Source of the DNA: Kiritimatiellota bacterium
GTDB lineage: Bacteria > Verrucomicrobiota > Lentisphaeria > Oligosphaerales > JAADHN01
DNA length: 39,158 nucleotides
Reading direction: 5' to 3'
Assembly (NCBI GenBank): GCA_013151865.1
Contig: JAADHN010000136.1
Location: forward strand, 1-39,158
Position numbers and translations under genes: made by a program. Positions 12,557 through 34,231 of the stretch are shown here, piece by piece. The notes beneath the pieces were generated by a model. The model was not told the origin of the DNA. It saw nothing but the letters and a program-made list of their open reading frames with translations, and ran no database searches. Position 1 is the first letter of the stretch. Each line of letters opens with the position of its first letter.

Positions 12557-13960
<1,404 letters not shown>

Positions 13961-14336
13961 GCGTGACTGCGTTGCCGACGACGCGAAGGTTCGTGCCCAC
14001 GGCGTGGTGAACGAACGACCGGCGCCGAACGGCGTGTCGGTCCGCCCGACGGCATGGGGCCCCGGTTCGCGTCCCGCGCGGCCGGGGTTTCTTTTGCCTG
14101 CCTTGCCGGGACAGCTCCGGCGCAAGCGACCGTCTGTTCGCTGCCCGCCGACGAACGGACGCGGGCAGTCTGTGCAGTTGATTCGCCCATCGGGTAATGC
14201 GATGGGAAGCCAAAAAGATCGAACTCATGCCCCCCGTTTTGCTGGACGGCCCGGTTTCCCCGTCGGACAAACCGGCCGCCGCCGGGCGGAGGTCCGGGGC
14301 GGCAAGGCACATCGACCCAGGACATGGGAGGCGTTG
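13961..14336. other. Intergenic region between gap and the sulfatase gene
   Basis: 376 bases. It contains the gap terminator at 14060-14095. The remaining 240 bases hold no coding frame or clear promoter; the sulfatase ribosome site GGGAGG is at the far end (about 14326-14331). Confidence 0.5.
14060..14095 (+). terminator. Intrinsic terminator of gap
   Basis: Outer stem CCCCGG (14060-14065) with CCGGGG (14082-14087), and inner stem CGCG (14068-14071) with CGCG (14075-14078) around TCC, followed directly by TTTCTTTT (14088-14095). Hairpin plus U-run, 100 bases after the gap stop codon. Confidence 0.65.
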
Positions 14337-15743
14337 ATGCGCAGGCCGAATATCCTGATCCTGCATACGGACCAGCAACGGTGGGATGCTCTCGGTGCGG
14401 CGGGCAATCCGGACATCCGGACCCCAAACCTCGACCGGCTGGCGTCCCGGGGCGCCTGCTTCGATCACCATTTCGTGCAGAACCCCGTCTGCATGCCGAG
14501 CCGCGTCAGTTTTCTCACAGGACAATACCCGTCCACGTTGCGGATCACGCATATGGGGGTGCCGGTCCCCGAGGACACCGTGACTTTGCCCCGACTGCTT
14601 CGGAACTACGGTTACCGGAGCGCGAATATCGGCAAGTTGCATTTTCTGCCTCACGCCAATCGCGACCATCGGGACGCACACCCGGACTACGGGTTCGACC
14701 ACCTCGAAATCTCCGATGAACCCGGCTGCTACGAAGACGCCTACTATGCATGGGTGGCGCGGAAAGCCCCGGATCAGCTCGACAGGATCAGTGTGGGATT
14801 GCCGCCCGCAACGGAAAAATGGCAGCAGATCATGGGGCTCCCCGACCCTGTGGTTCACCCCGAAGAGCGTTTTCCGAAACGTGCCATACCGGCGCGCTGT
14901 CGAAGCGACCTGACCCACACCGCGTTCGTTGCCGAGCAGACCGTCGAGTTCCTGAAAGCTTGCGGCGACCGGCCGTTCTGCTGCATCTCCGGCTTCTACT
15001 CCCCGCACTCCCCGTGGGTCGCCCCCCGGGAATGGCTGGAACTCTACGACCCCGGTCGGATGCACCTTCCCGAGTTTCCGCCTGAAATGGACGCCCGGCG
15101 GCGCGAAGGGTATTTCTCCGACGATGAATTGCGGGTGGCGCGGCAGGGGTATTACGGCATGGTCAGCGAGGTGGACCACCACGTGGGCCGGATCCTCGAT
15201 GCGCTCGAGCGCCTGGGATTGGCCGAGAACACGCTCGTGGTGTTCACCTCCGATCATGGCGAATGGCTGGGGGAGCATCTGAAGTACGGTAAAGGATATC
15301 CGGCCCTGGACTGCATCAGCCGCGTCCCGCTCTTGGTGCGTTGGCCCGCCGGGTTCGGGACCGAGGGTCGCGTCGTACACCGGATCGTCGAGCAGATCGA
15401 CGTGGTCCCCACCCTGCTCGATTGCGCCGGTATACCGCTGCCCGGACACCTGCAGGGGCGCTCGCTGGCGCCCCTCTGTGCGGGAAATGAGCGGGACGCA
15501 CCCGGCGAAGGACTCGGTATTACCGAACACCGCGGTTGGAAGAGCGTTCGTGCGGCCGGGTTCCGCTACGTGTGCGAAACCGGCGGCAAAGAAAGCTTGT
15601 ACGACCTCGATGCCGACCCCGGGGCCTATCGAAACGTTGTCGATGATTCCCGATACTTCCAGACCCTCGCGGATCTGCGCAAACGTCTCATGGTGCGCCT
15701 GCTTGAGGCGGAGCGTCCGTTGCCGCGCATTTGGCCGTATTGA
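14337..15743 (+). CDS. Family S1 sulfatase (formylglycine type), no signal peptide
   Basis: 468 residues. The ATG at 14337 has GGGAGG upstream and begins exactly at the sulfatase core (RRPNILILHTDQQRWD). Sulfatases of this alkaline-phosphatase-like fold hydrolyse sulfate esters using a formylglycine made from cysteine. The consensus C-x-P-S-R is present as Cys52-Met-Pro-Ser-Arg in VCMPSRVSFLTGQYPS. The metal-site Asp12/Gln13 lie in HTDQQ and Asp306-His307 in FTSDHGEWLGEH. The C-terminal region (ESLYDLDADPGAYRNVVDD) is also typical. No export signal is seen, so it probably removes sulfate from imported oligosaccharides or monosaccharides in the cytoplasm, unless the true start was misjudged. 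The formylglycine-generating enzyme is not in the window. It leads the plus-strand block; an exported CBM-like gene follows 97 bases later. The exact substrate cannot be read from the sequence. Confidence 0.94.
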   Translation: MRRPNILILHTDQQRWDALGAAGNPDIRTPNLDRLASRGACFDHHFVQNPVCMPSRVSFLTGQYPSTLRITHMGVPVPEDTVTLPRLLRNYGYRSANIGKLHFLPHANRDHRDAHPDYGFDHLEISDEPGCYEDAYYAWVARKAPDQLDRISVGLPPATEKWQQIMGLPDPVVHPEERFPKRAIPARCRSDLTHTAFVAEQTVEFLKACGDRPFCCISGFYSPHSPWVAPREWLELYDPGRMHLPEFPPEMDARRREGYFSDDELRVARQGYYGMVSEVDHHVGRILDALERLGLAENTLVVFTSDHGEWLGEHLKYGKGYPALDCISRVPLLVRWPAGFGTEGRVVHRIVEQIDVVPTLLDCAGIPLPGHLQGRSLAPLCAGNERDAPGEGLGITEHRGWKSVRAAGFRYVCETGGKESLYDLDADPGAYRNVVDDSRYFQTLADLRKRLMVRLLEAERPLPRIWPY

Positions 15744-20053: not shown

Positions 20054-20082
20054 TTGACCCGAGGCGGTCGAAGGGCTATAAT
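20054..20082 (+). promoter_or_regulatory. Near-consensus sigma-70 promoter of the regulatory block
   Basis: TTGACC at 20054-20059 (5 of 6 bases) and a perfect TATAAT at 20077-20082, with a 17-base spacer. This is by far the best promoter in the window. Transcription would start near 20089, giving a leader of about 265 bases before the ketosynthase-like gene. That leader contains a short ORF and an imperfect inverted repeat (about 20254-20264 with 20293-20302). Confidence 0.7.
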
Positions 20083-20110
20083 CCGTTCAAGAGATTCAGG
20101 ATCGACGTGC

Positions 20111-20212
20111 GTGAACATCCGACGCCGCTCCGAGAAGGTCTTGCAAGCCGTCGACCCGTTTCCGCCGCCCAAGAAGGCCGGACCCCGGAAGGTGCGACCG
20201 TTGCTCGAATAA
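20111..20212 (+). CDS. Candidate 33-residue basic leader protein
   Basis: GTG at 20111 to TAA at 20212, 33 residues. AGGA at 20098-20101 lies 9 bases before the GTG, and the predicted transcription start is only about 20 bases upstream, so translation is plausible. The product is basic and proline-rich, with a helix-like N-terminal half (NIRRRSEKVLQAVD) and a tail FPPPKKAGPRK ending in PLLE. I recognise no family. It could be a real small protein, a leader peptide that controls the genes downstream, or chance; the frame is also open further upstream. It ends 142 bases before the ketosynthase-like gene. Confidence 0.35.
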   Translation: MNIRRRSEKVLQAVDPFPPPKKAGPRKVRPLLE

Positions 20213-20354
20213 GACCACACATCGGGACGGCACGTACTGAACGACTCGGCATCGATTCGGATCGCTTTGAAGCGCGGGCGGTTTCAGGGACTCGATCGAA
20301 TCGTTCGGACCGCTTGGAGACGTATCGCACACTACACGTGGGGGTTCGGTTCTC

Positions 20355-21593
20355 ATGGCACGACGCGTCGTCATCACGGGAATGGGGGCGGTCACGCCGA
20401 TCGGCATCGGGTTGCGGGAGTACTGGGAGGGGCTGCTCGAGGGCCGGAACGGTGTGGGGCCCATCACGCTCTTTGATCCGAGCGACTATCCCACCCGGAT
20501 CGCGGCCGAGGTTAAAGAGTGGGACCCCGCTCGGTTCATAGATCGGAAGCGTGCCCGACTCATGGCCCGCGGCACCCACGGGGTCGCGGCTGCTCTCATG
20601 GCTCTCGAGGACGCCCAGTGGGATGAGCACCCCGGCGACGGACGACTCGGGGTGGTCGGGGGGGTTGCAACTTCGCCTCAAGATGCGATCGAAGACGCCG
20701 TTGAAACTCTCCAAGATAAGGGGTATGGCAGATCCAGTCCGTTTACGCTACTGAAATGCTTTGCCAATTCTGCAGCATCCGAAACTGGGTTCGCGACCGG
20801 CTTCCAGGAGAAAGTCCTCACAATTTCTACCGCCTGTACGTCTGGACTCAATGCAGTTGGTGAAGCCTTTGCGGAAATTCGAGCCGGTAAGGTCGATGCG
20901 ATGCTGTGTGTTGGTACCGATTCTTTATTGTCCAAATATGTATATGCGTATTTCTGCCGAGCCGGTTTGCTTTCTATGAACAATGAAGATCCCGAGCATG
21001 CAAGCCGGCCGTTCGATGCTAAACGCGATGGCGGCGTGCTGGGGGAAGGTGGCGGCTGTCTCATGATTGAATCCCTCGATCATGCAAAACGCCGTGGGGC
21101 GAGAATCCGTGCTGAAATACTTGGATTCGGGTCGACAGCAATAGGAAACACACGTACGCCGGAATATGACACTGTCCGTGGGATTTCCAATGCAATGCGG
21201 GAAGCTTTTGCAGTCGCAAACGTCAGTCCATTTCACATTGATTATGTTGGCTGCCATGGCTGTTCTGATCCACGTATTGACATTTGGGAAACGCAAGCAC
21301 TCAAACACGTTTTTGGTGACCATGCTTTCCGAGTTTCTATTAGTTCAGTTAAATCAATGATCGGAATACCAACCTGCGCTGCTGGAACGCTCCAGTTGAT
21401 AGCGACTGTATTGGGAATGGAAAAGGGTATCGTAGCCCCAACCACTAATTATGAGTATCCAGATCCGGAATGTGACTTGGATTACGTGCCGAATGTGCCC
21501 AGGCACATCTTGATTCGGAGGGCGCTGGTGTATGCTCACGGTCTCGGCGGCAATGACTCTTCTGTAGTTCTGAAACGAGGATCGGCCATTTGA
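20355..21593 (+). CDS. FabF-like ketosynthase-fold protein lacking one active-site histidine
   Basis: 412 residues, the length of FabF (about 413), from the ATG at 20355 with GGGGGT upstream. The thiolase fold of type II beta-ketoacyl-ACP synthases is clear from MARRVVITGMGAVTPIG onward. The nucleophile is Cys161 (ISTACTSGLNA), the first histidine is His301 (VGCHGCSDPRID) and the lysine is Lys333 (SSVKSMIGIPTCAAG). The second histidine, His340 in E. coli FabF (KSMTGH), is Ile338 here. The gatekeeper Phe400 motif GFGGTN reads GLGGND. Normal decarboxylative condensation is therefore doubtful; acyl transfer, non-elongating condensation or a binding role may be retained. No acyl carrier protein gene is nearby. 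Its stop overlaps the TTG start of the membrane histidine kinase, so the two are coupled. From about residue 116 onward the gene is AT-rich, unlike its first third. Confidence 0.92.
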   Translation: MARRVVITGMGAVTPIGIGLREYWEGLLEGRNGVGPITLFDPSDYPTRIAAEVKEWDPARFIDRKRARLMARGTHGVAAALMALEDAQWDEHPGDGRLGVVGGVATSPQDAIEDAVETLQDKGYGRSSPFTLLKCFANSAASETGFATGFQEKVLTISTACTSGLNAVGEAFAEIRAGKVDAMLCVGTDSLLSKYVYAYFCRAGLLSMNNEDPEHASRPFDAKRDGGVLGEGGGCLMIESLDHAKRRGARIRAEILGFGSTAIGNTRTPEYDTVRGISNAMREAFAVANVSPFHIDYVGCHGCSDPRIDIWETQALKHVFGDHAFRVSISSVKSMIGIPTCAAGTLQLIATVLGMEKGIVAPTTNYEYPDPECDLDYVPNVPRHILIRRALVYAHGLGGNDSSVVLKRGSAI

Positions 21594-24079
21594 CTTTTGT
21601 CAGCACGGTCCTACTGCTTTGCACTATGATAAGCGCCGCGTTCTTGGCGTATGTCTTTTGGCGACGACACACGCGTGCTGTACACTTTGCATTCGCTTTT
21701 CTTATCAGTGCAATAACTGCTTGGGTATTTTGCTGTTTTTTGGTGAGTTTCTTTGTTGATAAGAAACACATAGAATACGCCGGGAGATTTACATTTAGTT
21801 CTTCTGCTTTTATTGCCGGAAGTTATGTTGTTTTTTCTTGGTTTTTTCCTGAATCAGTCTCCCGTAAACCATCCAAAAGAACTGTCATTCTGGTGGGCAT
21901 TTCTACTCTGCTATTCGCGGGCATATCTCTTACTGATCTTGTGCAAAAATCAATTGTACTTGCAGACCATGGACGTGCTCCTGTTTTTGGTCCACTTCAT
22001 TGGCTTTTTATAGTTTATATGTTCTCGATGTTTATTATGGGAACCATAAATCTCTTGTGTTCGTGGAAGTATTCATCTAATGGAAGAGAACGTCTGCAGA
22101 TTAAATATAGTTTCATCGGGTTCTTAATTTCCTTTACTCTGGGTTATGGGGCGGCATTTGCCTTACCTCACTTCACGAGTTTCAGCGACTATTTCCTTTT
22201 GGGCGCGGCCAGTCCTCTGGTTTGGATCGGGTTCACCTCTTATGCCATTTTCCGGCATCGGTTGCTGGATATCGGCGTCGCCATGCGGAACCTGCTGATT
22301 TTCGGGACCACGACCTTGGTGTTGTGCCTGGCTTTCCTGGTTCTCTTCAAGCTGCACTCGTTCTTTCGGGCCACGACTCCCCGGGGCACCTATTGGTTGG
22401 TCGCCGTTTTGCTGTCCATGGCGCTGGCGGCAGTGATCGGCCCTCTCGAACGGCGTGTAACCCTCCTTGTGGACCGCTTCATCTTTCGCCATCGGCACGA
22501 TCAGCAGCAGGCCCTGATCGCTTTCAACGACGGACTGGGACGGACCTTTGGAAGATTCGGCATCGCCGCCTTTGCGGCGGACCAGGTCGCGGTCATTTTC
22601 GCGGCGGAGAGCAGTGCGCTCTACCTGCCTGCGGCGGGCGATGACGATGCCTTGCGCCTGGCCGCCCGCCACGGGACCGGCGACCTGCCGGCGACCCTCG
22701 AAGCCGGGCATGCGTTGGTCGACTGTGCCAGGCGCCACGAGGATGCCGTGTTGCGCGAGGAACTCCTCTACGGTCCCGAAGCCTCGACGGCCACGGCGCG
22801 CGAGGCCGCCGCCGTGCTCGAAGCCGCGGGTGCGGAACTCGCTTCGACGCTCGAATGCCAAGGGCGACTGTTGGGTTTGCTCCTTCTCGGACCGCGACGG
22901 GAGGAGAACACTTACACGTCGGCCGACCTCAAACTCCTCCATGCCCTGGCCGGGCAAACCGCGGTCGCTCTGGACAATGCCCGACTGTACGATGCCATGG
23001 TTTCGTCACGCCGTCATTACGAGGCCATTCTCCAGCATATGCAGCGCGGGGTGCTCACTGTGGATGCGGAACTGCGCATCGTCATGCTCAACCGTGCGGC
23101 GAGTACGTTGTTCAATGTGGACCCCGTCGCCTGGCGGCGTCGCCCGGTCGTGGACTTGGCGCCCGAGTTCGAGGCGCCGCTGCGTGCCGTCCTCCGCCGG
23201 GGAGGGGAGCGCGCCCTGGAAGAGATCACGGTGCGGATCGGCGGGCGGGAACTCCCTCTCGGGTACGAAGTTTCCCGGCTCCCGAGCCTCACCGGACACC
23301 CAACCGGAGCGCTGATCGTCTTCGAGGACCTCACCGAGAGAAGAAAACTCGAAGCCGAAGTGCGCCGAATGGATCGGCTTGCTTCCGCCGGTACGCTTGC
23401 CGCCGGGGTGGCCCATGAGATCAAGAACCCTCTGGTCTCGATTCACACCTTCGCCCAGCTCCTGCCCGAGCGCGGTGATGAGCCGGAATTCCGCGCCGAA
23501 TTCTCGCGCGTGGTCACTTCGGAGGTGGACCGGATCAATCACATGGTGCAGAACCTGCTCCACTTGGCCCATCCCCGAGGGACACGTACCGGCTGCGTCG
23601 ATATGTGCGCGGTGTTGAATGATGCCTTTGTCCTGCTCGATCAACAGTTTCAGAAACACGACATTAACGTGCGGCGGCACGTCCATTGCGGCGACGCTCT
23701 TGTCAGCGGCGACCGCGAGCAATTGTACCAGGTGTTGCTCAATCTCTTTCAGAATGCGCTCGACGCTCTGATCGGTCGGCCCACACGTATTTTGCGTGTT
23801 TCTCTCGAAAAAGGCATGGGACGGCTTGGCAACGAGCCCAAAAAGGTGGTAGTAGTACGCGTCGGCGACAACGGTCCGGGCATCGAGTCTGTCCACTTGG
23901 CGCACATCTTCGATCCGTTTTACACGACCAAGCCGTCGGGGCATGGTCTGGGCCTCTCGATCTGCCACGGGATCATCCGTGACCACGGCGGCGTGATCCG
24001 AGCCCGCAGCGAGGTTGGCAAAGGAACGGAATTCACGATAGAACTTCCCCTTTTCGACCAGGCCGGACGGGGAAAGTGA
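21590..24079 (+). CDS. Membrane histidine kinase (7TM-type sensor, GAF, PAS, HisKA, HATPase)
   Basis: 829 residues. The start is TTG at 21590, overlapping the ketosynthase stop (TTGA); GAGG lies about 9 bases upstream, and the next ATG (21626) would cut into the first helix. Residues about 1-275 contain eight or nine hydrophobic helices, resembling the 7TM sensor module of some histidine kinases. A GAF domain follows at about 297-466 (VAVIFAAESSALYLP to QTAVALDNARLYD), then PAS at about 475-590 (LTVDAELRIVMLNRAAS). The H-box AAGVAHEIKNPL places the phosphorylated His at 609. The ATPase domain has the N-box NLFQNALDAL, GDNGPGIE and GHGLGLSICHGI. All kinase motifs are intact. The signal is probably sensed in or near the membrane, and the likely phosphoacceptor is the NtrC-type regulator downstream. 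Codons 1 to about 203 are AT-rich and the rest is GC-rich. Confidence 0.93.
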   Translation: MTFVSTVLLLCTMISAAFLAYVFWRRHTRAVHFAFAFLISAITAWVFCCFLVSFFVDKKHIEYAGRFTFSSSAFIAGSYVVFSWFFPESVSRKPSKRTVILVGISTLLFAGISLTDLVQKSIVLADHGRAPVFGPLHWLFIVYMFSMFIMGTINLLCSWKYSSNGRERLQIKYSFIGFLISFTLGYGAAFALPHFTSFSDYFLLGAASPLVWIGFTSYAIFRHRLLDIGVAMRNLLIFGTTTLVLCLAFLVLFKLHSFFRATTPRGTYWLVAVLLSMALAAVIGPLERRVTLLVDRFIFRHRHDQQQALIAFNDGLGRTFGRFGIAAFAADQVAVIFAAESSALYLPAAGDDDALRLAARHGTGDLPATLEAGHALVDCARRHEDAVLREELLYGPEASTATAREAAAVLEAAGAELASTLECQGRLLGLLLLGPRREENTYTSADLKLLHALAGQTAVALDNARLYDAMVSSRRHYEAILQHMQRGVLTVDAELRIVMLNRAASTLFNVDPVAWRRRPVVDLAPEFEAPLRAVLRRGGERALEEITVRIGGRELPLGYEVSRLPSLTGHPTGALIVFEDLTERRKLEAEVRRMDRLASAGTLAAGVAHEIKNPLVSIHTFAQLLPERGDEPEFRAEFSRVVTSEVDRINHMVQNLLHLAHPRGTRTGCVDMCAVLNDAFVLLDQQFQKHDINVRRHVHCGDALVSGDREQLYQVLLNLFQNALDALIGRPTRILRVSLEKGMGRLGNEPKKVVVVRVGDNGPGIESVHLAHIFDPFYTTKPSGHGLGLSICHGIIRDHGGVIRARSEVGKGTEFTIELPLFDQAGRGK

Positions 24080-24121
24080 TGAAATACCGAAAGCGAACCG
24101 CACGGGAGGATAGGAGGAACC

Positions 24122-26155
24122 ATGCAGGGCGTGTTGATCGTTTCCGCGGACCCCGCCGTTCGAACGTCGCTCCGAGTCATTCTCCAGCACGGCCGGACGG
24201 TGCACGAACGAATGACTGCCGCGGATGCCCTCGCTCTGGCCGCGACTCAGCGGATGGATGTGATCTTCGTGGACGATGTCTTCCCGGACGCCGGTGCGGC
24301 GGACTTGGTCCGCGAACTCAGTCGGCTCGGTTACGGGCCGCAGATCGTGCCCCTGCTCCTCTCTCTGGATCCGCCTTGCACGGAGCCGTTTCAGCCATAC
24401 GGAGTGCGGCATTTCGTGGCCAAGCCCTTTCAAGTGGCGCGGATTCGCGAGATCGTCGGCATCATCGAGTACCCATCCCCGCAACAGCAGAACCCTTTGC
24501 CGACCGAGACCTGGCATGACGCCCACCCTGCTCCCGCCATGATCGGTGGTCCCGTTTCCGCCTTGGGAGGGGGGGCGCATGACGGTGCGCTACCGGTGAG
24601 CATTCGGGAAGTGGCCCAGCGGCTCCAAAGACTGCTCTCGCGCTCCCTGAAGCGGGCCGACCTGTTCCGGGCCTTCGCCGAAGCCTTGGAAGAACAGTTC
24701 GACGTGGACAACGTGGTCATCCTGCTGCCGGCCGATGACACACCCGAATTCCGCGTCTTTTCCGGCAATGTGGTGGACGAGGTTCGCGAACAGTTTTTCA
24801 TCCCCTTCGGCCAACCTCTTCTGGCCGCATTGGCGCGTCTCGGCGAGCCTTTCGATCTGCGTGCCGACCACCGGCTTGAGCGGACTCAAGCGGACGGGGC
24901 GCGGCTCTATGCGGAACGACTCGGCATCCGGTTGCTCTGCCCCGTGCTGTCCCGGGGACGTCTCCTGGCCCTGGTCGGTCTGAGCCGGTCCCACCGGTAC
25001 GAGGAGGGGGCCGCTTTCCGCGACCTGCTCCGTGTTTTCCTCTCGTTCTTTGCGCGGGCCCTCGAACACGCTACCGAGCATGAACACCTCTCTGCCGGAG
25101 AAGCCCGGTACCGCATGATCGTCGACGCCCTGCCGGCCGGGGCTGTCCTGGCCTCGACAGACGGGACGTGCCTCGAAATCAATCGGGCTGCCGCGGCATT
25201 GCTCCGGATCGACCGGGAACGGTTCATCGGCCTCCCGGTCGAGAAGCTCGATTCACGCCTGGCAGGGCTGGTCCGGGAAACGTTGGCAACAGACCGTTGT
25301 CCCGCTCCCCGGCTCGTCCCTCTGCCGGCCGGCCCGGTGGAAGTCAGTACCGCCGCGGCGTTCGACCGGACTTTTCCCGGCGGCGTCGTTCTCATGCTGC
25401 GCCGCGGCGCCGTCGAGGCGGCGGGGGGGGACGGGGATGCTTCGGCCCAAACGCCCAACAACTGGCAGCGCCTCGCCGATGCCCTGGCCCACAACTTCAA
25501 GAACGCGCTGGTGCCGGTGAAGACTTGCGCCGAACTCCTCCCCGAACGCCACGACGATGAGGAATTCCGGCAGTCGTTTTTCCAAGTCACGCGCGATGGA
25601 CTTGACCGTGTCGACGCCTGGATCGAACAGCTTTCCCGTTTTGCCCAGATCGAGGCCGTCGGACGGCGACTCACGACATTTTCCCTCCACGACGCACTCG
25701 AAGGCGCCCTGGAAAAAGCGGTGGCCGAATTCCCGGAGATGAGCGTCGACGTGGCCCGCGATTACAGCGGCAAAGACAAGCTCCGGGCGGCGCGTGGCGT
25801 AATCGAACAGGCCTTCGTCGAACTCATCCGAAACGCCCTGACCGCCATGAAAGAGAACGGCGAACCGCGGCTTCGATTGTGCACGCAGGTGTTCGCTGCC
25901 GCGGTCCAGGCCACGATCATCGACAATGGTCCGGGCGTCCCGCCCGAACATGTGCAAACTGTGTTCGAACCGTTCCATACCAATGGCATTTCCGGTTTGG
26001 GGCTCGGGCTCAGTTACGTTCGGAACGCCGTCCGGATCCATCGGGGCAAGGTCAAACTCGTGCCCGCCATCGGCGCCGGGGCGTGCTTCCAGGTCGTCCT
26101 TCCCACGAACCTGACGGCGGAAAAAGCCGCCGTCGGGTTGGATGCGGCAGGCTGA
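24122..26155 (+). CDS. Degenerate receiver-GAF-PAS-kinase protein, probable pseudokinase
   Basis: 677 residues. The ATG at 24122 follows TAGGAGGAACC, an excellent site, 42 bases after the kinase gene. Residues 1-125 are a receiver domain: Asp51 (FVDD) and Lys101 (FVAKPF) are kept, but the acidic pair that binds magnesium is Ser8-Ala9 (IVSADP, against VVDDEP in the neighbouring regulator). GAF-like residues about 165-325 and a PAS domain about 330-430 follow. The kinase core parallels that of the upstream kinase (LLPERHDDEEFRQSF against LLPERGDEPEFRAEF), but the H-box is LAHNFKNALVP, with His457 followed by Asn instead of the conserved Glu. The ATPase domain looks usable (ELIRNALTAM, DNGPGVP, GLGLGLSYV). 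It may therefore be a scaffold, phosphatase or titration partner rather than a kinase. That is inference. Confidence 0.9.
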   Translation: MQGVLIVSADPAVRTSLRVILQHGRTVHERMTAADALALAATQRMDVIFVDDVFPDAGAADLVRELSRLGYGPQIVPLLLSLDPPCTEPFQPYGVRHFVAKPFQVARIREIVGIIEYPSPQQQNPLPTETWHDAHPAPAMIGGPVSALGGGAHDGALPVSIREVAQRLQRLLSRSLKRADLFRAFAEALEEQFDVDNVVILLPADDTPEFRVFSGNVVDEVREQFFIPFGQPLLAALARLGEPFDLRADHRLERTQADGARLYAERLGIRLLCPVLSRGRLLALVGLSRSHRYEEGAAFRDLLRVFLSFFARALEHATEHEHLSAGEARYRMIVDALPAGAVLASTDGTCLEINRAAAALLRIDRERFIGLPVEKLDSRLAGLVRETLATDRCPAPRLVPLPAGPVEVSTAAAFDRTFPGGVVLMLRRGAVEAAGGDGDASAQTPNNWQRLADALAHNFKNALVPVKTCAELLPERHDDEEFRQSFFQVTRDGLDRVDAWIEQLSRFAQIEAVGRRLTTFSLHDALEGALEKAVAEFPEMSVDVARDYSGKDKLRAARGVIEQAFVELIRNALTAMKENGEPRLRLCTQVFAAAVQATIIDNGPGVPPEHVQTVFEPFHTNGISGLGLGLSYVRNAVRIHRGKVKLVPAIGAGACFQVVLPTNLTAEKAAVGLDAAG

Positions 26156-26520
26156 GACGATGGATCGGCGGTGCGGTCCCGGGGCATGCCGGCGTCGTGG
26201 GACGCGCCCGCACCTCCACCGAACCCACTCGGGACAGGCGCCCCTCTCCCGCCCCTCTCCGGCCTGTCCCAAGCAGCGAGACAGGAATCGTCGGGGTGTG
26301 CAAGCGGAACATGCGCATGGGGCGACTCGCGAGCAGCGGCCCGGTCCGTACGGCCGCCGGGATCGCCCTCCAGGGGGAATCGCCGGGAGTGTGCTTTCGT
26401 GCAATTTGGGCGTCGCCAGGTTTGCGTGGGTGCGAGTACTGGTGCAAACAAGTAAACCGGGCACTTTGACCCGTGACAACGGCGGTCGCCGGCCCGGGCG
26501 CCACAGGGAGTTCCATCTCC
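26156..26520. other. Intergenic region between pseudokinase and NtrC-type regulator
   Basis: 365 bases, an unusually wide gap inside an apparent operon. It contains the hairpin with a duplicated 11-base loop motif (26231-26270). No convincing coding frame. A GTG at 26473 would extend the regulator by 16 residues. No -24/-12 sigma-54 promoter (TGGC-N8-TTGC pattern) was found here. Confidence 0.5.
26231..26270. repeat. 9-bp hairpin enclosing a tandem 11-bp pyrimidine repeat
   Basis: GGGACAGGC (26231-26239) pairs perfectly with GCCTGTCCC (26262-26270). The loop region holds two exact adjacent copies of CGCCCCTCTCC (26239-26249 and 26250-26260). On the opposite strand the loop has G-runs (GGGG, GGG, GGGG). 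It may be an RNA processing or attenuation element between the two coding regions. Confidence 0.5.
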
Positions 26521-27888
26521 GTGAAGACACTTTTGGTCGTAGACGACGAGCCCGGCGTGCGGTTCTCCCTCGAAACCGTGTTCCAGCGCCAGTATCGCGT
26601 GGTCGCAGTGGAAAACGGCGAGCAGGCCGTCGAAGCCCTGCGCACGGAAAGCCCGGACTTGGCCATCGTCGATATTCTCATGCCCGACATGTCCGGTCTG
26701 GACTTGCTGCCCCTCCTCAAGCAGGAAGATCCCCAACTGCCCGTGATCATGCTCTCCGCGCTCAAAGACGTGTCGAAAGTCGTGGACGCGATCCAACGCG
26801 GCGCCGCGCAGTATTTGACAAAACCCTTCGATGTGGACGAACTCCGCCTGGCCGTGCGTATGGCCCTGAGAAACGCGGGACGCCTCAATGAATTGACCGC
26901 ACTCGAAAGCGAAATGACCCGGTGGTACGATACATCGAGCATCGTCGGCGAATCCCGGGCCTGGCGCGAAACCTTGGCTGTGGCCCAACGGGCCGCGGCT
27001 TCACCGGACACCACTATCATGCTGTACGGCGAGAGCGGGACGGGCAAGGAACTCCTCGCCCGCCTGATTCACGCCCGGAGTCCTCGACGCAACGCACCCA
27101 TGATGCCCATTCATTGCGCCGCAGTCCCCGAAGCCCTGATGGAAAGTGAACTGTTCGGCCATGAAAAGGGCAGTTTCACCGGGGCCATGGAACGCCGTCG
27201 GGGGTGCGTCGAACTGGCCGATACGGGCACCCTGTTCCTGGACGAAATCGGTGAAATGCCTGCTGCCATGCAGAGCAAGCTGCTTCGCTTTCTCCAGGAT
27301 CACGAGTTCATGCGAGTGGGGGGCAGCGCCATCCTGCACGCCAATGTCCGCGTCATCGCCGCCACGAACCGAGATCTGAAAAAAGGGGTGAGCGAAGGCT
27401 GGTTCCGGGAAGACCTTTTCTACCGTCTGAACGTTGTGCCGATTACCATTCCGCCTCTGCGGGATCGTCCGGAAGACATCCCCTTGCTCGTGAATCATTA
27501 CGTGTCGCATTTCGCCCGGGAATGCCGGGGCGCTATGGAGAGTGTGCACGCCGCCGCCATGGAAATCCTCTGCAACTATCCTTGGCCCGGCAACATCCGT
27601 GAACTCCGCAACGTGATCGAGCGGGCCATCGTCCTCAACGGTGCGGCCCGAGAACTCACCCCGGCCCATCTTCCCGCCGAACTCGAGGGGGGCGCGGCTG
27701 GGACTTCGGCCGGCCCATCGCCCGCCTCGTTTCCCGTATCCCTGCAACAGGAGGTTCGGGAACTCGAAACCCGCCTGATCCGGGCCGCGCTCATTGAAGC
27801 CGGCGGCAACCTCTCCCAGGCCGCCGTGCTCCTCCAAACCACGCGCCGAATCCTCAAGTACAAGATCGACCAGCTCGGCTTGGATTGA
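26521..27888 (+). CDS. NtrC-family sigma-54-dependent response regulator
   Basis: 455 residues from the GTG at 26521, with AGGGAG 10 bases upstream, which starts directly at the receiver domain ([12 protein letters not shown]). GTG at 26473 is an alternative giving 471 residues. The receiver (1-115) is intact: Asp8, Asp9, phosphoacceptor Asp51 ([11 protein letters not shown]) and Lys101. The AAA+ sigma-54 interaction domain (about 133-370) has Walker A GESGTGKE, the sigma-54 contact loop as GSFTGA (a common variant of GAFTGA), Walker [11 protein letters not shown], and [15 protein letters not shown]. The C-terminus is a Fis-type helix-turn-helix ([20 protein letters not shown]). Once phosphorylated it should activate sigma-54 promoters. 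It is the likely output of the upstream kinase pair. A secreted polysaccharide lyase gene lies 214 bases downstream, but no sigma-54 site is visible before it, so the target genes are unknown. Confidence 0.96.
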
Positions 27889-28102
27889 TTCCGGGCTTGG
27901 GGTGCGTGCAAATCGAACGAATGCACGAATCGGGCCGATGCCTGGCGGAGGACGATCCCGACGGACGGGAGAGCTGTGGGGAACGGCAACGCCTGCGGTT
28001 CGCGTGGCGTCTTGCAAGGGCTTCGGCTGTGAGGTCGCAAGGGCGCGGAGGCCAATACGTCCCCGAGTCGCCCCGTTCTCACAGAGAACGAAGGAACGCG
28101 TC

Positions 28103-30811
28103 ATGTCCTTTTGCCACATGTTCCGCGGCCCCCTCGAACACTGCCTCGCCGGCCCGCTCCGGATTCCGATCTCTTGCTTGGCAGTGCTCGCACTCGCAGG
28201 CGACGGCGCTCCACTTCGGGGCGCTTCCAACGCCACGCTCCGGGCGGCGGACAAGGCGCCCCGTCGGATCGACTTCCCGAACTCGGGATTCGAACAGGGC
28301 GCGACAGGGTGGACTATCCCAAAACAGTCCACGTTGGCGACTGTATCCGCCGAACAGGCGGCCACCGGGCGATATTCCCTGAGAATCACCGATACCTCGA
28401 AACGGGGCGGGTCGAATGTCAGTGGCCCCAGGGTCCTGCTGCCCGGCGAAGGGTTCTATCGCATTCGCGGCAAAGTGTATCCTGTTTCGGGAAGCGGCCT
28501 GGGAATCTATGTCCGTCGGTTCGACAAAAACGGGAAAGCCCTCGGAGACGCCACGCACCTCCTGGGACTCGGAGGCGCAGAACGGGCTTGGCGGACCTTC
28601 GAGACCTCGCTGATGGTCTCATCGGAAGTCCGGTCCCTCCAGTTCTGGATCCACAGTTACGACAAGGCAGTGGTCACCGCGTACCTGGACGACTTCGAAA
28701 TCGACGCCATTGCTTTGCGCAGCGACGGCACAAACGAACGTTCCATAAAGGACCTGACCGTCATTCGCGAGCGCCTGACTCGGGCGGCCCTCGGATCGGC
28801 CGGCGCTTTCGACGATGTGCGTCGCTACATGGCCGAACAGCAATCGGATGGCAGCTGGACGGACATCGACTACGAGAATCGCAACCGCACCTCTTGGGCG
28901 CCCACGCGGCACGTGAGCCGAATCTACCGGATGGCCCGGGCCTGGCGTCATCCGGATTCCCCGCTCCACAACGACCCCGAACTTCGCGGGGCCATCCTCC
29001 GCGCCTGGGATTCGTGGACACGCCAAGACCTCAAGTGCCCGAACTGGTGGTACAATGTCATCGGCGTGCCCCGCATCGTCTATCGCGCCATGCTTCTCAT
29101 GGGGTCGGAACTGACTTCCGAACAGTTCAAGGCCGGGATTCGCATTCTCCGGAATGCCAAACTGGGAATGACGGGTCAGAACTTGGTTTGGGTCGCGGAA
29201 GTGACCGTGGCCCGAGGCTGTCTGGAACAAGATCCATGGACCGTTCAACTGGCCTTTCGGCGTATGGCGGACGAGATCCAGGTGGGCCTCGGGGAAGGCA
29301 TTCAACCGGACTACAGTTTCTACCAACATGGAACGCAGCTCTACAACGGCGGGTACGGAAAAGGTTTTTCTCGGGACTGCGCCTACTTTGCCGCCCTTGG
29401 CCGCGGAACGTGTTTCGCCTTTGGCAAAGACCGGATCGAGACCCTCGTCGCCTACCTGCTCGACGGCCAGCAATGGATGGTCCGCGGGCCCGTTTTCGAT
29501 TATAGCGCCTGCGGCCGCGAAATCGCCCGCAAAGGGGGCGGTAAGGCGGCCGGCCTGGCAGACGCCTGCCGCTCCCTGCTCGAACTCGACGCCGCCGCTC
29601 TCCCGCGGCGTGACGAACTCGAACGCTTCCGGGAACGCCTCGAACACCCCACCCCAGAAAACGCTCTGCGCGGAAACCGCCATTTCTGGCGGGCCGACTA
29701 CATGACTCACCACCGGGCCGCTTTCATGGTCTCGGTCCGAATGACCTCCCCCCGCACCCTCCAGACCGAGACCTGCAACGCCGAAAACCTCCTTGGGCGA
29801 CATCTCTCGGACGGAGTGATGTACCTGTATCGGCGCGGCGACGAGTACAAGAACGTTTTTCCGCTCTGGGACTGGAAGCGGCTGCCCGGCATCACGGTCG
29901 AACTCACGCCCGACCCCCCGGCGACCCGCAACGGTCAACGCGGGAAACGGGACTTTGTCGGTGGCGTGTCCGACGGCGTTTATGGACTGGCCGCCATGGA
30001 TTTCGCCCGGGGCCGATTGACCGCCCGCAAGAGCTGGTTCTTCTTCGACCGGGAAATCGTTTGCCTCGGGGCCGGTATCACGTGCCCCACCGATTTCCCT
30101 GTGGTCACTTCGCTCAATCAGTGTCGGCTCAAGGGGAAAGTGACCGTCGCAGACACGACCGGGAACGCGCGTCCCTCGAGCCGCGGGGAACACCGCCTGC
30201 AGGCGCCCGGTTGGGTCCTGCACGACGGCGTGGCTTATGTTTTCCCGGAAAGTGCGAGAGTGACGGTTCGGAACGCGTCGCAATCCGGCAACTGGCGACG
30301 GATCAACCATGTCTACCCGAAGACCGAACTTTCGATGGGCGTCTTCAGCCTCTGGATCGACCACGGAAAGCAGGTTGAAAACGGCGCCTACCGATACGTG
30401 GTCGTGCCGGAGGTCACACCGGCCACGGCGGCGGCCATCGCGGCCCGGTCGCCCGTGACCGTGCTCTCCAATACGGCGCAGAGGCAAGCTGTTCGGCACA
30501 ATGAGTCAGGCGTCTTGGGAATCGTCTTCTGGACGCCCGGCAGTCAATCCCTCCCGGACGGATCCCGAATCGGCGTGGATCGAGCCTGCCTGCTCTTGCT
30601 CCGACCGGACGGGAAACGGGGGATGAGGCTCGCCGTCGCCAATCCCGAGAATCGCCCCCTCGACCTCACCGTCACTTTGAAGGCCCGGTTCGAAGGCGAG
30701 GGGTGCGTGTGGTCCGCCGCAGACGGGGTGACCCGGGTCCGTTTTGCCCTTCCCGACGGGCCCCTTGCCGGCAGCAGCGTGGTCCGGCGCCTCTCGCGCC
30801 CCGGGCCGTGA
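28103..30811 (+). CDS. Secreted family 8 polysaccharide lyase with N-terminal CBM
   Basis: 902 residues from the ATG at 28103, with AAGGAA 8 bases upstream. A signal peptide (about 1-38, PISCLAVLALAGDGA) is followed by a CBM4/9-like jelly roll at about 50-205 (FPNSGFEQGATGWTIP, YLDDFEIDAI). The lyase is the PL8 fold of hyaluronate, chondroitin AC and xanthan lyases: an (alpha/alpha) toroid at about 215-560 followed by beta-sandwich domains. Conserved residues can be placed: Trp315/Trp316 in NWWYNVIGVP, Asn360 in TGQNLVW, His409 in SFYQHGTQLYNGGYG and Tyr418 nine residues later, the spacing seen in known PL8 enzymes. FPLWDWKRLPGIT is also typical. It cleaves uronic-acid polysaccharide by beta-elimination outside the cytoplasm; whether the substrate is hyaluronan, chondroitin or another polymer cannot be told. 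It is convergent with the mannosidase gene. Confidence 0.94.
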   Translation: MSFCHMFRGPLEHCLAGPLRIPISCLAVLALAGDGAPLRGASNATLRAADKAPRRIDFPNSGFEQGATGWTIPKQSTLATVSAEQAATGRYSLRITDTSKRGGSNVSGPRVLLPGEGFYRIRGKVYPVSGSGLGIYVRRFDKNGKALGDATHLLGLGGAERAWRTFETSLMVSSEVRSLQFWIHSYDKAVVTAYLDDFEIDAIALRSDGTNERSIKDLTVIRERLTRAALGSAGAFDDVRRYMAEQQSDGSWTDIDYENRNRTSWAPTRHVSRIYRMARAWRHPDSPLHNDPELRGAILRAWDSWTRQDLKCPNWWYNVIGVPRIVYRAMLLMGSELTSEQFKAGIRILRNAKLGMTGQNLVWVAEVTVARGCLEQDPWTVQLAFRRMADEIQVGLGEGIQPDYSFYQHGTQLYNGGYGKGFSRDCAYFAALGRGTCFAFGKDRIETLVAYLLDGQQWMVRGPVFDYSACGREIARKGGGKAAGLADACRSLLELDAAALPRRDELERFRERLEHPTPENALRGNRHFWRADYMTHHRAAFMVSVRMTSPRTLQTETCNAENLLGRHLSDGVMYLYRRGDEYKNVFPLWDWKRLPGITVELTPDPPATRNGQRGKRDFVGGVSDGVYGLAAMDFARGRLTARKSWFFFDREIVCLGAGITCPTDFPVVTSLNQCRLKGKVTVADTTGNARPSSRGEHRLQAPGWVLHDGVAYVFPESARVTVRNASQSGNWRRINHVYPKTELSMGVFSLWIDHGKQVENGAYRYVVVPEVTPATAAAIAARSPVTVLSNTAQRQAVRHNESGVLGIVFWTPGSQSLPDGSRIGVDRACLLLLRPDGKRGMRLAVANPENRPLDLTVTLKARFEGEGCVWSAADGVTRVRFALPDGPLAGSSVVRRLSRPGP

Positions 30812-30896: not shown

Positions 30897-33800
30897 TCAC
30901 ATCCGAATCCGAAACGTGCGCACCTGGAACGGCTCGATCCGGAACTGGAACGCCCCGTCCGTGAGAGGCAGAGCAGGACCCGGGTCTTCTTCGATGAAGT
31001 TGCAGGGGACCACGGTGCTCGGTGCGGGATCGAAGGCTGCGCGAACCGGCGTCCGGCCCCCATGCGCCTCGTAGAACCGGGCGATCCAGCCATCTCCGTC
31101 TTGGGCGGGCTTGAGCGTGTCGAGCACGACCCCCGCGCCTTCGATACGGCAGAAAGAGCGCGAGCGGTCGGACGGCGGACCTGCCGAGGGCAACCCGGGC
31201 ACGGCGCGGAGCGGTGCGTTCAGTTCCGCGGCGGCGCGGACCGTCCCGCCTTCGGTCCAGCCGCCGAGGTGCGGCAGCAGGGCGTAGACAAAGCGATGGC
31301 GTCCCAAGTCGGCCTTCGGGTCGGGGTACTCGGGGCCCCGCAACAGGGTCAGGCGCAGCACATTCCCTCTCACATCGCAACCGTACCGAGAATCGTTCAA
31401 GAGGCTGACCCCGTATCCGGCTTCGGACAAGTCCATCCAGCGTTGGGCCGCCACCTCGAACTTCTGCTCTTCCCAGCTCGTGTTCCGGTGTGTGGGCCGC
31501 TCGACCGCACCGAACTGCACCTCGAAGGTTGCGTGCGGACTCCGCACCGCCACAGGAAACGCCACTTTAAGCATTGTCTGACGCTCGCGCCAATCCACCA
31601 CCGCACTGAAATCGATGCGCGGCGTCTGCCGGTAGATCCGAATGTCGCACGTGATCCGCGTCTTGCGATACTTGCGGCTCACACGCACCGTCGCCCGCAC
31701 GGGACCGGTCTCGACCACCTCGATCCGGGCGGCCCCCTCGAATCGGTATCGCTTCCTGTCAAAGGTGTCGTGGACGTTCCAAGCGGCCTCCCGCTCCGGG
31801 CCGTCCTGGAAAAGCTGCCAGTCATTAGCCCGGGCGCCGTCGGAAAGCACTTCACGTCCGTTGCGTTTGTCCAACAGACGGATGATCGCCCCCTCTTTGT
31901 CAAGCTCGATTCGGAAAAACTGGTTTTCGAGGCAGTCCCTGTCAGCAACAAGCGCCGCGTCGGTTTCCGGTGCGTGGCCTCGGCGCACCAGAAAGCCTTC
32001 GATGCCCATAGCCGGCGCCGACGCCGGTTCGAAAACCACTCGGGCCGCCCCGGACGGCCCCCGCTCGACGACCTGCGCCGGACAGGCGCAACCGTTCGAG
32101 TCGATCAATTGCACCGGATCGTCGCCGGGAAGCTCGATGACCGCCTCGACCGGGTCCGAACGCTCCCAGGAAAGGGCGTTGAGCACTGTCAAATCGCCCC
32201 CGACAGCCGCGATTTCCGCCAGGGCCGCGGCCGCCCGGTCCCGGACCGTCTTGGCGGTTTTGGCGGCCCGGGCATGGTCGGCGGCGGCATCGACATATAC
32301 CTCGCCGATCGAACTGCCCGGCAGGATGTCGTGAAACTGCTGCAACAAAACGCGCCGCCAGGCGTCGTGCAGCAAAGCGGGCTCCAGCGATGTGCCGGAC
32401 ATCTGAGCGAGTGAAGCCCAAACTTCCGCTTCCCGCAACAGTAGTTCCGTGCGCCGGTTGGCCTGTTTCGTCCGACTCTGGCTGGTGTACGTACCCCGGT
32501 GCGTCTCGAGGTAGAGTTCGCCTTCCCATACCGGCAGGTCGCGGGCCGTTTTCGCCGCGCGGTCGTAGAACTCTTCTTCCCCGGCAATGCGTGTGGCCGG
32601 CAGGCCGGGAAAGGTCCGGGCCCGTTCGGCGAATTCGAGCATCTGGGCTGTGGGGCCCCCGCCGCCGTCGCCGTATCCGAAGGGCAGCAGCAACTCGTCG
32701 TAGACTCCCTTTTCCCGGAAGTTCTCCCAACCCGCCGCCAGTTGTTCCGGGCGCGGAGCGCCGTTGTACCCGGACGGAAGCTTCGGGATGTGCGCCAGGA
32801 CGCGACTGCCGTCGATTCCTTGCCAGTGGAACAGGTGGTGCGGAAACGGGTTCGTGCTTTGCCAGTGCAGCTTGCATGTGAAGAAATAGTCGATCCCGCA
32901 TCCCTTGAGGATTTGGGGCAGGTTGCCGGGATAACCGAACACATCGGGCAGCCAGCACGTCCGGGGCCGCGTGCCGAACTCCGCGGCAAAAAACTCGAGT
33001 CCGTACAGGATTTGGCGAATCAGCGATTCGCCCGAGGGTACATTGCAGTCCGATTCCACCCACAGCGCCCCCGTAGTATGCCAGCGCCCGGCTTTCGCCC
33101 ACTTGCGGATTTCGGCATACAGGTCCGGGTATACCTCCCGCACATAGGCATAAAGTTGGGCTTGGCTGCAGGAAAAATGGAACTCCGGGTACTGCTCGAG
33201 CAGGCGTACGGCGGTAGAAAAAGTCCGCGCACATTTCCGGATGGTCTCGCGGACGGGCCAGAGCCAGGCGGTGTCGATATGCGTGTGCCCCGCCAGAAGG
33301 ATTCGCCCGCCTTCGGGGTCCGGCGCGATGTCGCCGACGCGCTCGTGGAGCAGGGCGCGCGCCGATTCGGCGTCGCGACGGAGACGTTCCGACTCGACCG
33401 TCAGGTCGATCTCGAGCAGCGCTGCCTCCAGGGCCGCCGCGAGCCGGTCGCGCCGGCGTGGGTCGCGCACGGCGCGCACGGCCTCCCAAGTGAAAAGCAA
33501 ATCGAGCCACGCCGCTTCCATCACGCGGTCCACAAGGACCAACGCGGCGCCGTCGAATCGCCCGAACCCCCGGCGCAGGCCCGGCTCGCGCCACGCCCGG
33601 GCCAGGGACATGGCCTCGATCGTCAGTTCGTGCGGACCTGCCGCCGGCAAGGGGACCCGTGTGTGGTTCGCGTCGACTCCCGCCCAGGGGCGACCGTCCA
33701 CCGACAGCAACGATTCCAGGTCGCTGAAGCCGAAATCGAGGAGCATGGCCGTTCCGGGGTCGGCCGACGGCGCCGGAACTTCGAACCGGGTCCGCAGAAA

Positions 33801-33983
33801 AGCGGTCCGAAGTGCGGGCACGGACAGAGCGCCGTCCACGGGGCTCCAGTCGCCGTCGAACTCGTATCGATTCGGCCCGACGTGTCGGGCGATGCGTGCC
33901 TCCCACGGTCCCAGCGGGGTCCGGGAAAGGACCATTCGATCTCGGAGAATGTCCAGCTTTTTCGAAATGATGCGTTCGTCCAT
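30897..33983 (-). CDS. GH38 alpha-mannosidase
   Basis: 1028 residues, the normal size of bacterial GH38 enzymes, from the ATG at 33983 with GGGAG 8 bases upstream. The frame is open further upstream but that extension is unlike the family. There is no signal peptide, so it is cytosolic. An N-terminal beta domain (1-225) is followed by the catalytic (beta/alpha)7 barrel. AGHTHIDTAWLWPVRET carries zinc ligands His235 and Asp237; the nucleophile is Asp347 in CWLPDVFGYPGNLPQIL. The middle three-helix bundle has the family motif ETHRGTYTSQSRTKQANRR, and beta-sandwich domains finish the protein. It removes alpha-linked mannose from oligosaccharides, probably after uptake of N-glycan or mannan fragments. 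It is preceded 248 bases upstream by the giant secreted protein gene on the same strand and faces the PL8 gene across an 85-base gap. Confidence 0.96.
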   Translation of the reverse strand: MDERIISKKLDILRDRMVLSRTPLGPWEARIARHVGPNRYEFDGDWSPVDGALSVPALRTAFLRTRFEVPAPSADPGTAMLLDFGFSDLESLLSVDGRPWAGVDANHTRVPLPAAGPHELTIEAMSLARAWREPGLRRGFGRFDGAALVLVDRVMEAAWLDLLFTWEAVRAVRDPRRRDRLAAALEAALLEIDLTVESERLRRDAESARALLHERVGDIAPDPEGGRILLAGHTHIDTAWLWPVRETIRKCARTFSTAVRLLEQYPEFHFSCSQAQLYAYVREVYPDLYAEIRKWAKAGRWHTTGALWVESDCNVPSGESLIRQILYGLEFFAAEFGTRPRTCWLPDVFGYPGNLPQILKGCGIDYFFTCKLHWQSTNPFPHHLFHWQGIDGSRVLAHIPKLPSGYNGAPRPEQLAAGWENFREKGVYDELLLPFGYGDGGGGPTAQMLEFAERARTFPGLPATRIAGEEEFYDRAAKTARDLPVWEGELYLETHRGTYTSQSRTKQANRRTELLLREAEVWASLAQMSGTSLEPALLHDAWRRVLLQQFHDILPGSSIGEVYVDAAADHARAAKTAKTVRDRAAAALAEIAAVGGDLTVLNALSWERSDPVEAVIELPGDDPVQLIDSNGCACPAQVVERGPSGAARVVFEPASAPAMGIEGFLVRRGHAPETDAALVADRDCLENQFFRIELDKEGAIIRLLDKRNGREVLSDGARANDWQLFQDGPEREAAWNVHDTFDRKRYRFEGAARIEVVETGPVRATVRVSRKYRKTRITCDIRIYRQTPRIDFSAVVDWRERQTMLKVAFPVAVRSPHATFEVQFGAVERPTHRNTSWEEQKFEVAAQRWMDLSEAGYGVSLLNDSRYGCDVRGNVLRLTLLRGPEYPDPKADLGRHRFVYALLPHLGGWTEGGTVRAAAELNAPLRAVPGLPSAGPPSDRSRSFCRIEGAGVVLDTLKPAQDGDGWIARFYEAHGGRTPVRAAFDPAPSTVVPCNFIEEDPGPALPLTDGAFQFRIEPFQVRTFRIRM

Positions 33984-34168
33984 TGTACGTTCTCCCGAAT
34001 CTGCGTGTCCCCACCGGATTGTCGTGTCCCGCTCAGGGGCGATTCGCCTCGGCGGGAGAGCCGTTCGTCCCAGGCGTCGGGTTGTGCCTTCGGTCCCGCG
34101 GAGCATCGCCCACGATGCCGGCATCCTCCGGACGAAACGATCCGGGGGAGGTGCGCCGTCGTCCCGGT

Positions 34169-34195: not shown

Positions 34196-34231
34196 GTTTT
34201 CCATGGCGCACCCAGCCCATGAACCGGGCTA

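Follow-up and report, generated by a model that had tools for sequence, protein, structure and literature searches.

A KAS II-like ketosynthase lacking a catalytic histidine belongs to a conserved two-component gene module with a likely FadL output

The window (the whole stretch of DNA analysed, 39,158 nucleotides of contig JAADHN010000136.1 from a Kiritimatiellota bacterium) contains four consecutive genes on the forward strand that encode a KAS II-like ketosynthase (KS), a 7TM sensor kinase (HK1), a second kinase-like protein (HK2), and an NtrC-type activator (Table 1). These genes had been described in a first-pass annotation made from the sequence, and open frames with strong Pfam matches are present at the places that it gave. 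The TTGA overlap between the KS stop and the HK1 start, taken there as translational coupling, is confirmed at 4 bases, and the same 4-base overlap occurs in six related loci (L054, L074, L103, L106, L119, and L122), which with the window makes seven. The claim that one strong promoter precedes the genes is only partly sustained. The sigma-70-like match at 20054 agrees with the hexamers at 11 of 12 bases and lies ~270 nt upstream of the KS start, but sites of at least 9/12 are not more numerous in the region (2) than in shuffled sequence (mean 1.6). It is plausible that this element is the operon promoter. Homologues of the activator start at a position equivalent to GTG 26521, and this codon is more likely to be the real start than 26473. 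Depending on the start used, HK2 and the activator are separated by 317 to 365 nt, and consequently a single transcript of all four window genes is only putative; in several relatives the kinase and activator genes abut or overlap.

Table 1. Features of the ketosynthase-kinase locus, in window positions
Feature	Positions	Strand	Evidence
KAS II-like ketosynthase (KS)	20355-21593	+	open frame; Pfam PF00109 2e-43, PF02801 5.8e-25
HK1, HisKA_7TM-GAF-PAS-HisKA-HATPase sensor kinase	21590-24079	+	open frame; strong Pfam matches
HK2, pseudo-receiver-GAF-PAS-HisKA-HATPase kinase-like protein	24122-26155	+	open frame; Pfam matches
NtrC-type sigma-54 activator, REC-AAA+-Fis HTH, GSFTGA loop	26473-27888	+	open frame; strong Pfam matches
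Sigma-70-like promoter match TTGACC-17-TATAAT	20054-20082	+	11/12 hexamer bases

Both the N- and C-terminal ketoacyl synthase domains of the window KS (PF00109 and PF02801) score over the Pfam cut-offs, and KAS III families are not among its Pfam matches. The best NCBIfam model is fabF, at 392 bits, which is below the cut-off of 493.75. Cys161, His301, and Lys333 are present, while alignment to the KAS II chain 1e5m places Ile338 at the second catalytic His (the His of KSMTGHLLG), leaving the Cys-His-His triad incomplete. The second His is kept in all three of the other KS proteins of the same genome that were compared (contigs C56, C66, and C169).

The arrangement of KS and kinase genes is not peculiar to the window. 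The nearest KS homologue among 288 sampled genomes of the phylum (G182, 56%) also precedes a 7TM kinase. A scan of named genomes returned 79 KS loci, and these together with the phylum matches include 14 distinct KS genes followed by a kinase gene, 13 of which encode proteins without the second His; the exception, L064, has the order KS-HK-HK with the His kept. A profile search covered 387 genomes of the window's phylum, from which the best 30 loci were inspected. Among these, 24 lack the second His and all 24 are followed by a 7TM kinase, and none of the six that keep the His is followed by one. Going by their assigned taxonomic labels, the 24 genomes span 18 families of the phylum, and module loci are also found in Omnitrophota records (L048, L103, and L106), with further clade loci from other records (L054, L074, and L039). 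One of the latter, L039, is recorded as Paceibacterota; this label is probably wrong, because KS and FadL lie at almost identical coordinates in a genome placed in the window's own order (G390). A tree built from 134 KS sequences groups 30 of the 31 kinase-linked KS in one clade (SH-aLRT 99), L064 again being the exception. The first-pass suggestion of a conserved system, in which a KS with the same lost His is followed by a 7TM kinase, is therefore borne out across these families and the Omnitrophota records, and the case that it named as a refutation (KS genes that have the His and are not near kinases) fits the outgroup and not the kinase-linked clade.

Across the 30 clade loci, HK1 is present in 28, HK2 in 27, and an NtrC-type activator in 17, counts that are lowered by contig ends cutting several loci (in L048 and L118 the contig ends inside HK1). 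By the fixed BLAST score limits used for comparison, HK1, HK2, NtrC, and the REC-kinase hybrid described below are near none of 54 ordinary KS loci (minimum length 9 kb). Pairwise distances are correlated between KS and HK1 (r 0.87, n = 28), HK1 and HK2 (r 0.94, n = 27), HK1 and NtrC (r 0.91, n = 17), and KS and FadL (r 0.55, n = 18), each with a Mantel p of 0.001; common descent alone can explain this divergence in step, and contact between the proteins is unproven by it. Results from these comparisons provide good support for KS, HK1, HK2, and the activator as a conserved module. An ordinary KAS II gene lying beside a kinase by chance, for which the nearest NCBIfam model, fabF, might speak, has next to no probability: the score falls short of the fabF cut-off, the same genome has, on C169, another KS gene whose product keeps the usual residues, and the conserved synteny, the single clade, the loss of the His, and the comparison with ordinary KS loci argue against a chance neighbor.

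The pattern of retained and lost residues in the clade is informative with respect to KS function. Cys and Lys are each kept in 30/30 clade loci and the first His in 26/30, and the second His, the key residue reported as lost in the first-pass annotation, is kept in 0/30, its replacements being Asn (23), Ile (3), Cys (3), and Gln (1). In the outgroup (n = 100, excluding the own-genome KS on C56, C66, and C169 and both KS of L064), Cys, Lys, and both His are each present in 100/100; all counts per column rest on aligned rows. Clade and outgroup switch at 10 KS positions, of which three (105, 107, and 108) are in a loop that we take to be the acyl-pocket loop and several are next to catalytic residues. 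The gating loop 2 stretch is 4 residues shorter in 24/30 clade KS and of full length in 99/100 of the outgroup, and since its Asp is still aligned in 21/30, loop 2 is shortened, not destroyed; in the window KS this stretch has normal length and a changed sequence. In the helix that presumably docks ACP, position 68 is basic in 28 of the 30, and Arg is found at position 69 in 25 and at position 72 in 29, while Lys at position 65 is present in only 10/30. Chain-length factors have lost the active-site Cys, and this identity for the KS is ruled out by the Cys in 30/30. In the C16AcpP-FabF complex, H303 and H340 of FabF both contact the acyl carbonyl mimic (PMC7138838). Elongation is probably beyond the KS, given the lost second His, the changed pocket loop, and a loop 2 that is either shorter or different in sequence, and even acyl loading is only putative since the first His is changed in 4/30.

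These losses would also suit a scaffold, with the KS a pseudoenzyme that keeps the kinases assembled and has no ligand, as the second catalytic His is gone, loop 2 is altered, and the KS diverges in step with both HK1 and HK2. The invariant Cys and Lys (30/30) and the clade-wide switches, most of which affect the active site and the pocket loop, instead indicate a retained small-molecule function, and such a scaffold is considered very unlikely.

The catalytic motifs of HK1 are well conserved. Its phospho-His, Glu, Asn, and ATP-site residues are intact in 28/28 sequences (a set that includes L064), with the HisKA Lys replaced by Arg in 3/28, and its best NCBIfam match is AtoS (284.3 bits against a cut-off of 646). 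A structure model of the 7TM region of fair quality (pLDDT 82.5, pTM 0.56) gave GAF- or phytochrome-type proteins as the first 50 Foldseek matches, which offer no ligand clue. HK2 is more degenerate, and in the window its HisKA domain is weak and below the Pfam cut-off. The first-pass annotation held that this middle protein has lost key residues in two domains, and both losses are seen: the acidic pair of the receiver is Ser-Ala, with the Asp kept, and the HisKA Glu is Asn, with the HisKA His kept. Only the former is general. The receiver Asp is kept and the acid pair lost in 27/27 HK2 sequences (L064 included; the second position is Glu in 3), but the HisKA Glu is lost only in the window and L039. 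Elsewhere, the HATPase domain lacks its N and G1 residues in three loci (L054, L074, and L103), and the HisKA His is missing from L064. The window activator has the REC Asp and Lys, the Walker motifs, the GSFTGA loop, and a Fis-type HTH; its best NCBIfam match is AtoC (457.1 bits, cut-off 714). Receiver and Walker A residues are kept in 17/17 activators, and the fifth position of the GAFTGA motif is Gly in 10 and Asn or His in 6, the motif being lost in L119.

A FadL-family outer-membrane channel is encoded near the KS in 19/30 clade loci, and in 19/19 of these a REC-HisKA-HATPase hybrid adjoins it. In 18 loci FadL and the KS operon point away from each other, and in L123 FadL follows the KS operon on its strand. 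In the comparison set of 54 ordinary loci described above, FadL is near 2. Eleven of the 30 clade loci have no FadL; the upstream flank of the KS is short in six of these (L054, L074, L118 on a 4.5 kb contig, L167, L174, and L177), so that absence there is largely uninformative, and FadL was not found near the KS despite more flank in the window, L048, L165, L173, and L179, the last three of which have the REC-kinase hybrid with FadL not detected. The first-pass annotation missed this FadL/REC-kinase unit, along with the sigma-54-like promoters and palindromic sites that make it the probable output of the circuit.

In the window genome, the FadL/REC-kinase pair lies away from the KS contig, on C91. 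Compared with their L039 counterparts, the C91 FadL shows 50% identity (441 residues) and the C91 hybrid 51% (387 residues). Assignment to the family follows from PF03349 (232.2 bits for the C91 copy, cut-off 29.7; the L120 copy is also over the cut-off), while the best NCBIfam match of the L039 protein is FadL at 105.5 against an equivalog cut-off of 585. FadL-family genes on C14 and C99 of the window genome are not of the C91 type. Of 40 genomes of the same order, five have the clade KS at E < 1e-110, and this FadL reaches E < 1e-110 in exactly those genomes (its next match is at 2.8e-53), although the relatedness of the genomes and their incompleteness limit how far this co-occurrence can be tested formally. 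Three families (f3, f64, and f4) each have one genome with both KS and FadL and other sampled genomes with neither. KS and FadL are on separate contigs in G000, G182, G387, and G311 and on one contig in G390, and in the four genomes with FadL on another contig the KS stays with HK1. Because FadL is the partner, a hydrophobic or acyl ligand is likely for the circuit, a prediction drawn from FadL only and in line with the acyl ligand suggested in the first-pass annotation, of which the KS would be a putative maker, binder, or presenter. Control of FadL by the circuit is likely. Proximity to FadL, the retained Cys, and the FAD-binding oxidoreductase-like genes of 7 loci could alternatively point to an acyltransferase or acyl-thioester hydrolase that acts on FadL-imported fatty acids and is co-regulated while remaining outside sensing. 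This explanation is unlikely, as the KS belongs to the kinase operon (4-base HK1 overlap in seven loci) and not to the FadL operon, and it is the KS that stays with HK1 where KS and FadL are on separate contigs (4/5 genomes).

Control of FadL by sigma-54 has been probed by scoring the 480 nt before each FadL gene against a sigma-54 consensus (maximum 27, threshold at least 22). Sites reaching the threshold precede 12/19 FadL genes, compared with 0.67 expected (0.035 each), and are lacking before 7/19; L166 is excluded from this count as its FadL frame was cut short in ORF calling. Both strands of all these loci together contain 13 sites with a score of 24 or more, and 8 of them precede FadL. 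The FadL start codons are uncertain, and in 11/12 promoter-bearing loci the site is followed after 16 to 81 nt by an in-frame start codon, that of L120 coming directly after the site. Upstream of the promoters, a Gibbs search identified the palindrome [CG]TGTNC-N6-GNACA[CG], with a total score of 156.4 compared with 94-103 in four single-base shuffles that were run with fewer seeds. This search forced one site per sequence, and the sites of L122, L164, and L127 fit the consensus poorly. When a scan built from nine of the sites was applied, a palindrome scoring at least 15 was found within 450 nt upstream in 12/20 FadL loci and not in the remaining 8/20; L106, L119, and L166 have the palindrome and were not used to build the scan, although L106 is close kin of L103. 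Paired palindromes 30 nt apart are present in L166 and L178.

The window genome encodes sigma-54 (rpoN is present), and its own FadL promoter is weak (TTGGCATGGAACTCGCG, 22/27). The main-clade palindrome was not found by the scan upstream of this FadL, and its 24 occurrences in the genome, as opposed to 18 for the reversed control, are not a clear enrichment, so that it is rejected as an own-genome regulon. A related form, TGACA-N4-TGTCA, appears to serve the clade to which the window belongs; it was recognised by eye, in part from the window genome's own FadL locus. It is exact upstream of FadL in the window genome (88 nt before the promoter element) and in L192, has two mismatches in L039 and L191, and is absent from L193; the FadL of the latter (G182) has neither site, and the L192 promoter is without the -12 GC. 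This form occurs once in the 6.2 Mb window genome compared with 3 times for the reversed control, and consequently it is not enriched and its position, not its frequency, is the point. Before the window KS, the sigma-54-like sites are moderate only (21.5/27 at 19885 and 20.5/27 at 20189) and scanning found no palindrome; sigma-54 or palindrome control of the window KS operon is rejected on these grounds. A palindrome is close to the KS start in L122, L167, and L169.

It is proposed, with about an even chance of being correct, that these genes form a lipid-responsive sigma-54 circuit that controls FadL and in which the KS is a non-elongating acyl-binding partner of the kinase. In this circuit HK1, with its catalytic motifs intact, would phosphorylate the NtrC-type activator, and the phosphorylated activator would bind the palindromes and open the FadL promoter. 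HK2 may tune HK1 or the activator via its receiver, which is without the metal-binding acids. The KS would take an acyl chain from acyl-ACP (or acyl-CoA) onto the retained Cys, a loading step proposed from the conservation of Cys, Lys, and most of the docking-helix basic residues, and the membrane kinase HK1 would read acylated versus free KS. Import through FadL of long-chain fatty acids, or of other hydrophobic compounds, would be adjusted accordingly, with the C91 FadL/REC-kinase pair of the window genome controlled in trans. We infer the identity of the ligand, the direction of control, phosphotransfer, and palindrome binding from sequence. The role of the KS as an acyl-loaded partner of HK1 may or may not be right in roughly equal measure, and is preferred to the alternatives because the KS accompanies HK1 even where FadL is elsewhere, always has the Cys and Lys, and lacks the second His. 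A more specific form of this proposal is that the KS is a covalent acyl-thioester sensor, in which the Cys is charged by acyl-ACP and a long-lived acyl-enzyme reports acyl supply. The loss of the second His would block condensation, and the 7TM kinase would set lipid uptake through FadL and the sigma-54 promoters. This reading is tentative and less likely than not.

The main rival to an acyl-loaded KS is a signal synthase paired with its receptor, wherein the KS together with locus-specific tailoring enzymes would make a lipid-derived extracellular signal sensed by HK1, and FadL would pass the signal or a precursor over the outer membrane. Several clade loci do contain candidate tailoring genes near the KS: an ICMT/PEMT-type methyltransferase (L039, L048, L118, L171, L172, and L175), a B12 radical SAM gene (L054, L103, L106, L122, and L168), an ACP gene (L048), FAD-binding oxidoreductase-like genes (7 loci), and, in some loci, ThiF genes. 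Such genes fit signal making, as do the invariant Cys and Lys and the first His in 26/30. Furthermore, KAS III enzymes use a Cys-His-Asn triad, which leaves room for activity in the 23 Asn forms. Yet no tailoring gene is common to all 30 clade loci, and none of the sampled types (1-3 query examples per type) was found in the window. The first His is lost in 4/30, the second is Ile, Cys, or Gln and not Asn in 7/30, and loop 2 is altered. On balance, a signal-making KS is doubtful, though conceivable.

If the acyl-loaded KS or its signal-making rival is correct, bacteria would be reading their own acyl-carrier pool, or making a dedicated lipid signal, by means of the KS and adjusting lipid uptake, and a retired fatty-acid enzyme would be tied directly to gene control. 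To our knowledge, a covalent sensor, if true, would be the first fatty-acid synthase enzyme turned into a two-component signalling subunit. The findings described here supply a likely output (FadL), DNA sites, and two residues (Cys161 and Ile338) for further study in poorly studied lineages.

Comparison with known systems places each component in a familiar family. The KS shares with KAS II (FabF, 1e5m) its full-length homology, Cys, Lys, first His, and most basic residues of the docking helix, and differs in the lost second His, the changed pocket loop and loop 2, and its location in a signalling operon. The KS0 domains of trans-AT polyketide synthases are non-elongating and likewise keep the Cys while losing a condensation His; in KS0 it is the HGTGT His that is lost, whereas here that His is mostly kept and the other lost, and KS0 is a domain of a polyketide synthase while the KS is a stand-alone protein. 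AtoS/AtoC and NtrB/NtrC have the same PAS-HisKA-HATPase kinase and REC-AAA+-Fis activator, to which the present module adds a 7TM sensor, a pseudo-receiver kinase, a KS partner, and a likely FadL output. PhcB/PhcS and CqsA/CqsS are pairs of a signal synthase and a sensing kinase, and PhcBSR, CqsA/CqsS, and Rpf/DSF all resemble the module in having a lipid enzyme gene beside a membrane kinase, here without a shared tailoring enzyme; we know of no KAS II-type enzyme and no NtrC/FadL output in these three. The channel is a FadL by PF03349 (L120 and C91 copies over the cut-off) and is unusual in its pairing with a REC-kinase hybrid, apparently under sigma-54. The closest parallel to the FadL control proposed here is in E. 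coli, where, by genomic SELEX, the fadL promoter region is among the targets of RpoN holoenzyme and NtrC and RpoN is reported to repress fadL (PMC8743547); as described there, neither a KS nor a dedicated kinase module is involved. The first-pass annotation knew of no described system with this make-up, and in the part of the openly licensed literature covered, no description of a system of KS, kinase, FadL, and sigma-54/NtrC was found. The parts are of known kinds; what appears to be new is their combination and the regular presence of a KAS II relative in a two-component module.

The genes around the module in the window include those for a sulfatase, a polysaccharide lyase and an alpha-mannosidase, indicating that its surroundings are a polysaccharide-degrading neighbourhood. 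The GC content of one stretch there is 0.38-0.53, compared with approximately 0.63 in its surroundings; the drop is abrupt and lies within the ketosynthase-like gene, while the return occurs within the membrane part of the 7TM sensor kinase gene. This stretch is possibly a recombined segment.

Positions of features in the window and in loci of relatives (L numbers)
Feature	Locus	Position
Sulfatase gene	window	13842-15743
Polysaccharide lyase family 8 gene	window	27794-30811
GH38 alpha-mannosidase gene	window	30897-34616
Low-GC stretch	window	20700-22250
REC-HD regulator, MreB and MreC genes	L054	7357-10507
REC-HD regulator, MreB and MreC genes	L074	7048-10213
FAD-binding (PF01565) oxidoreductase gene	L120	15119-16726
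Further copies of the oxidoreductase gene	L122, L123, L164, L169, L176, L180	
Palindrome	L122	9812-9829
NtrC-type protein	L119	5797-7173
Module	L064	15397-21131

Other genes lie near the module in some relatives. In two loci the activator is followed by a REC-HD regulator and then by MreB and MreC genes (identified by Pfam in L054 and by homologues in L074), as if the module were tied to cell-shape genes. In seven loci the oxidoreductase gene follows the pair of FadL channel and REC-kinase genes. A perfect palindrome, GTGTACAAAATTGTACAC, at the start of the L122 ketosynthase frame hints at autoregulation at that locus. The L039 record is labelled Candidatus Paceibacterota; this label is suggested to be wrong by the nearly identical ketosynthase and FadL coordinates in G390, a genome placed in the window's order.

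In L119 the GAFTGA loop of the NtrC-type protein is gone and Asp stands in place of the Walker B Glu, so that this protein may be unable to activate sigma-54. The L064 module, ordered ketosynthase, sensor kinase, pseudo-receiver kinase, retains the ketosynthase catalytic His, and Gln replaces the phospho-His of the pseudo-receiver kinase. Its ketosynthase falls outside the main clade, and this module is an independent or ancestral version.
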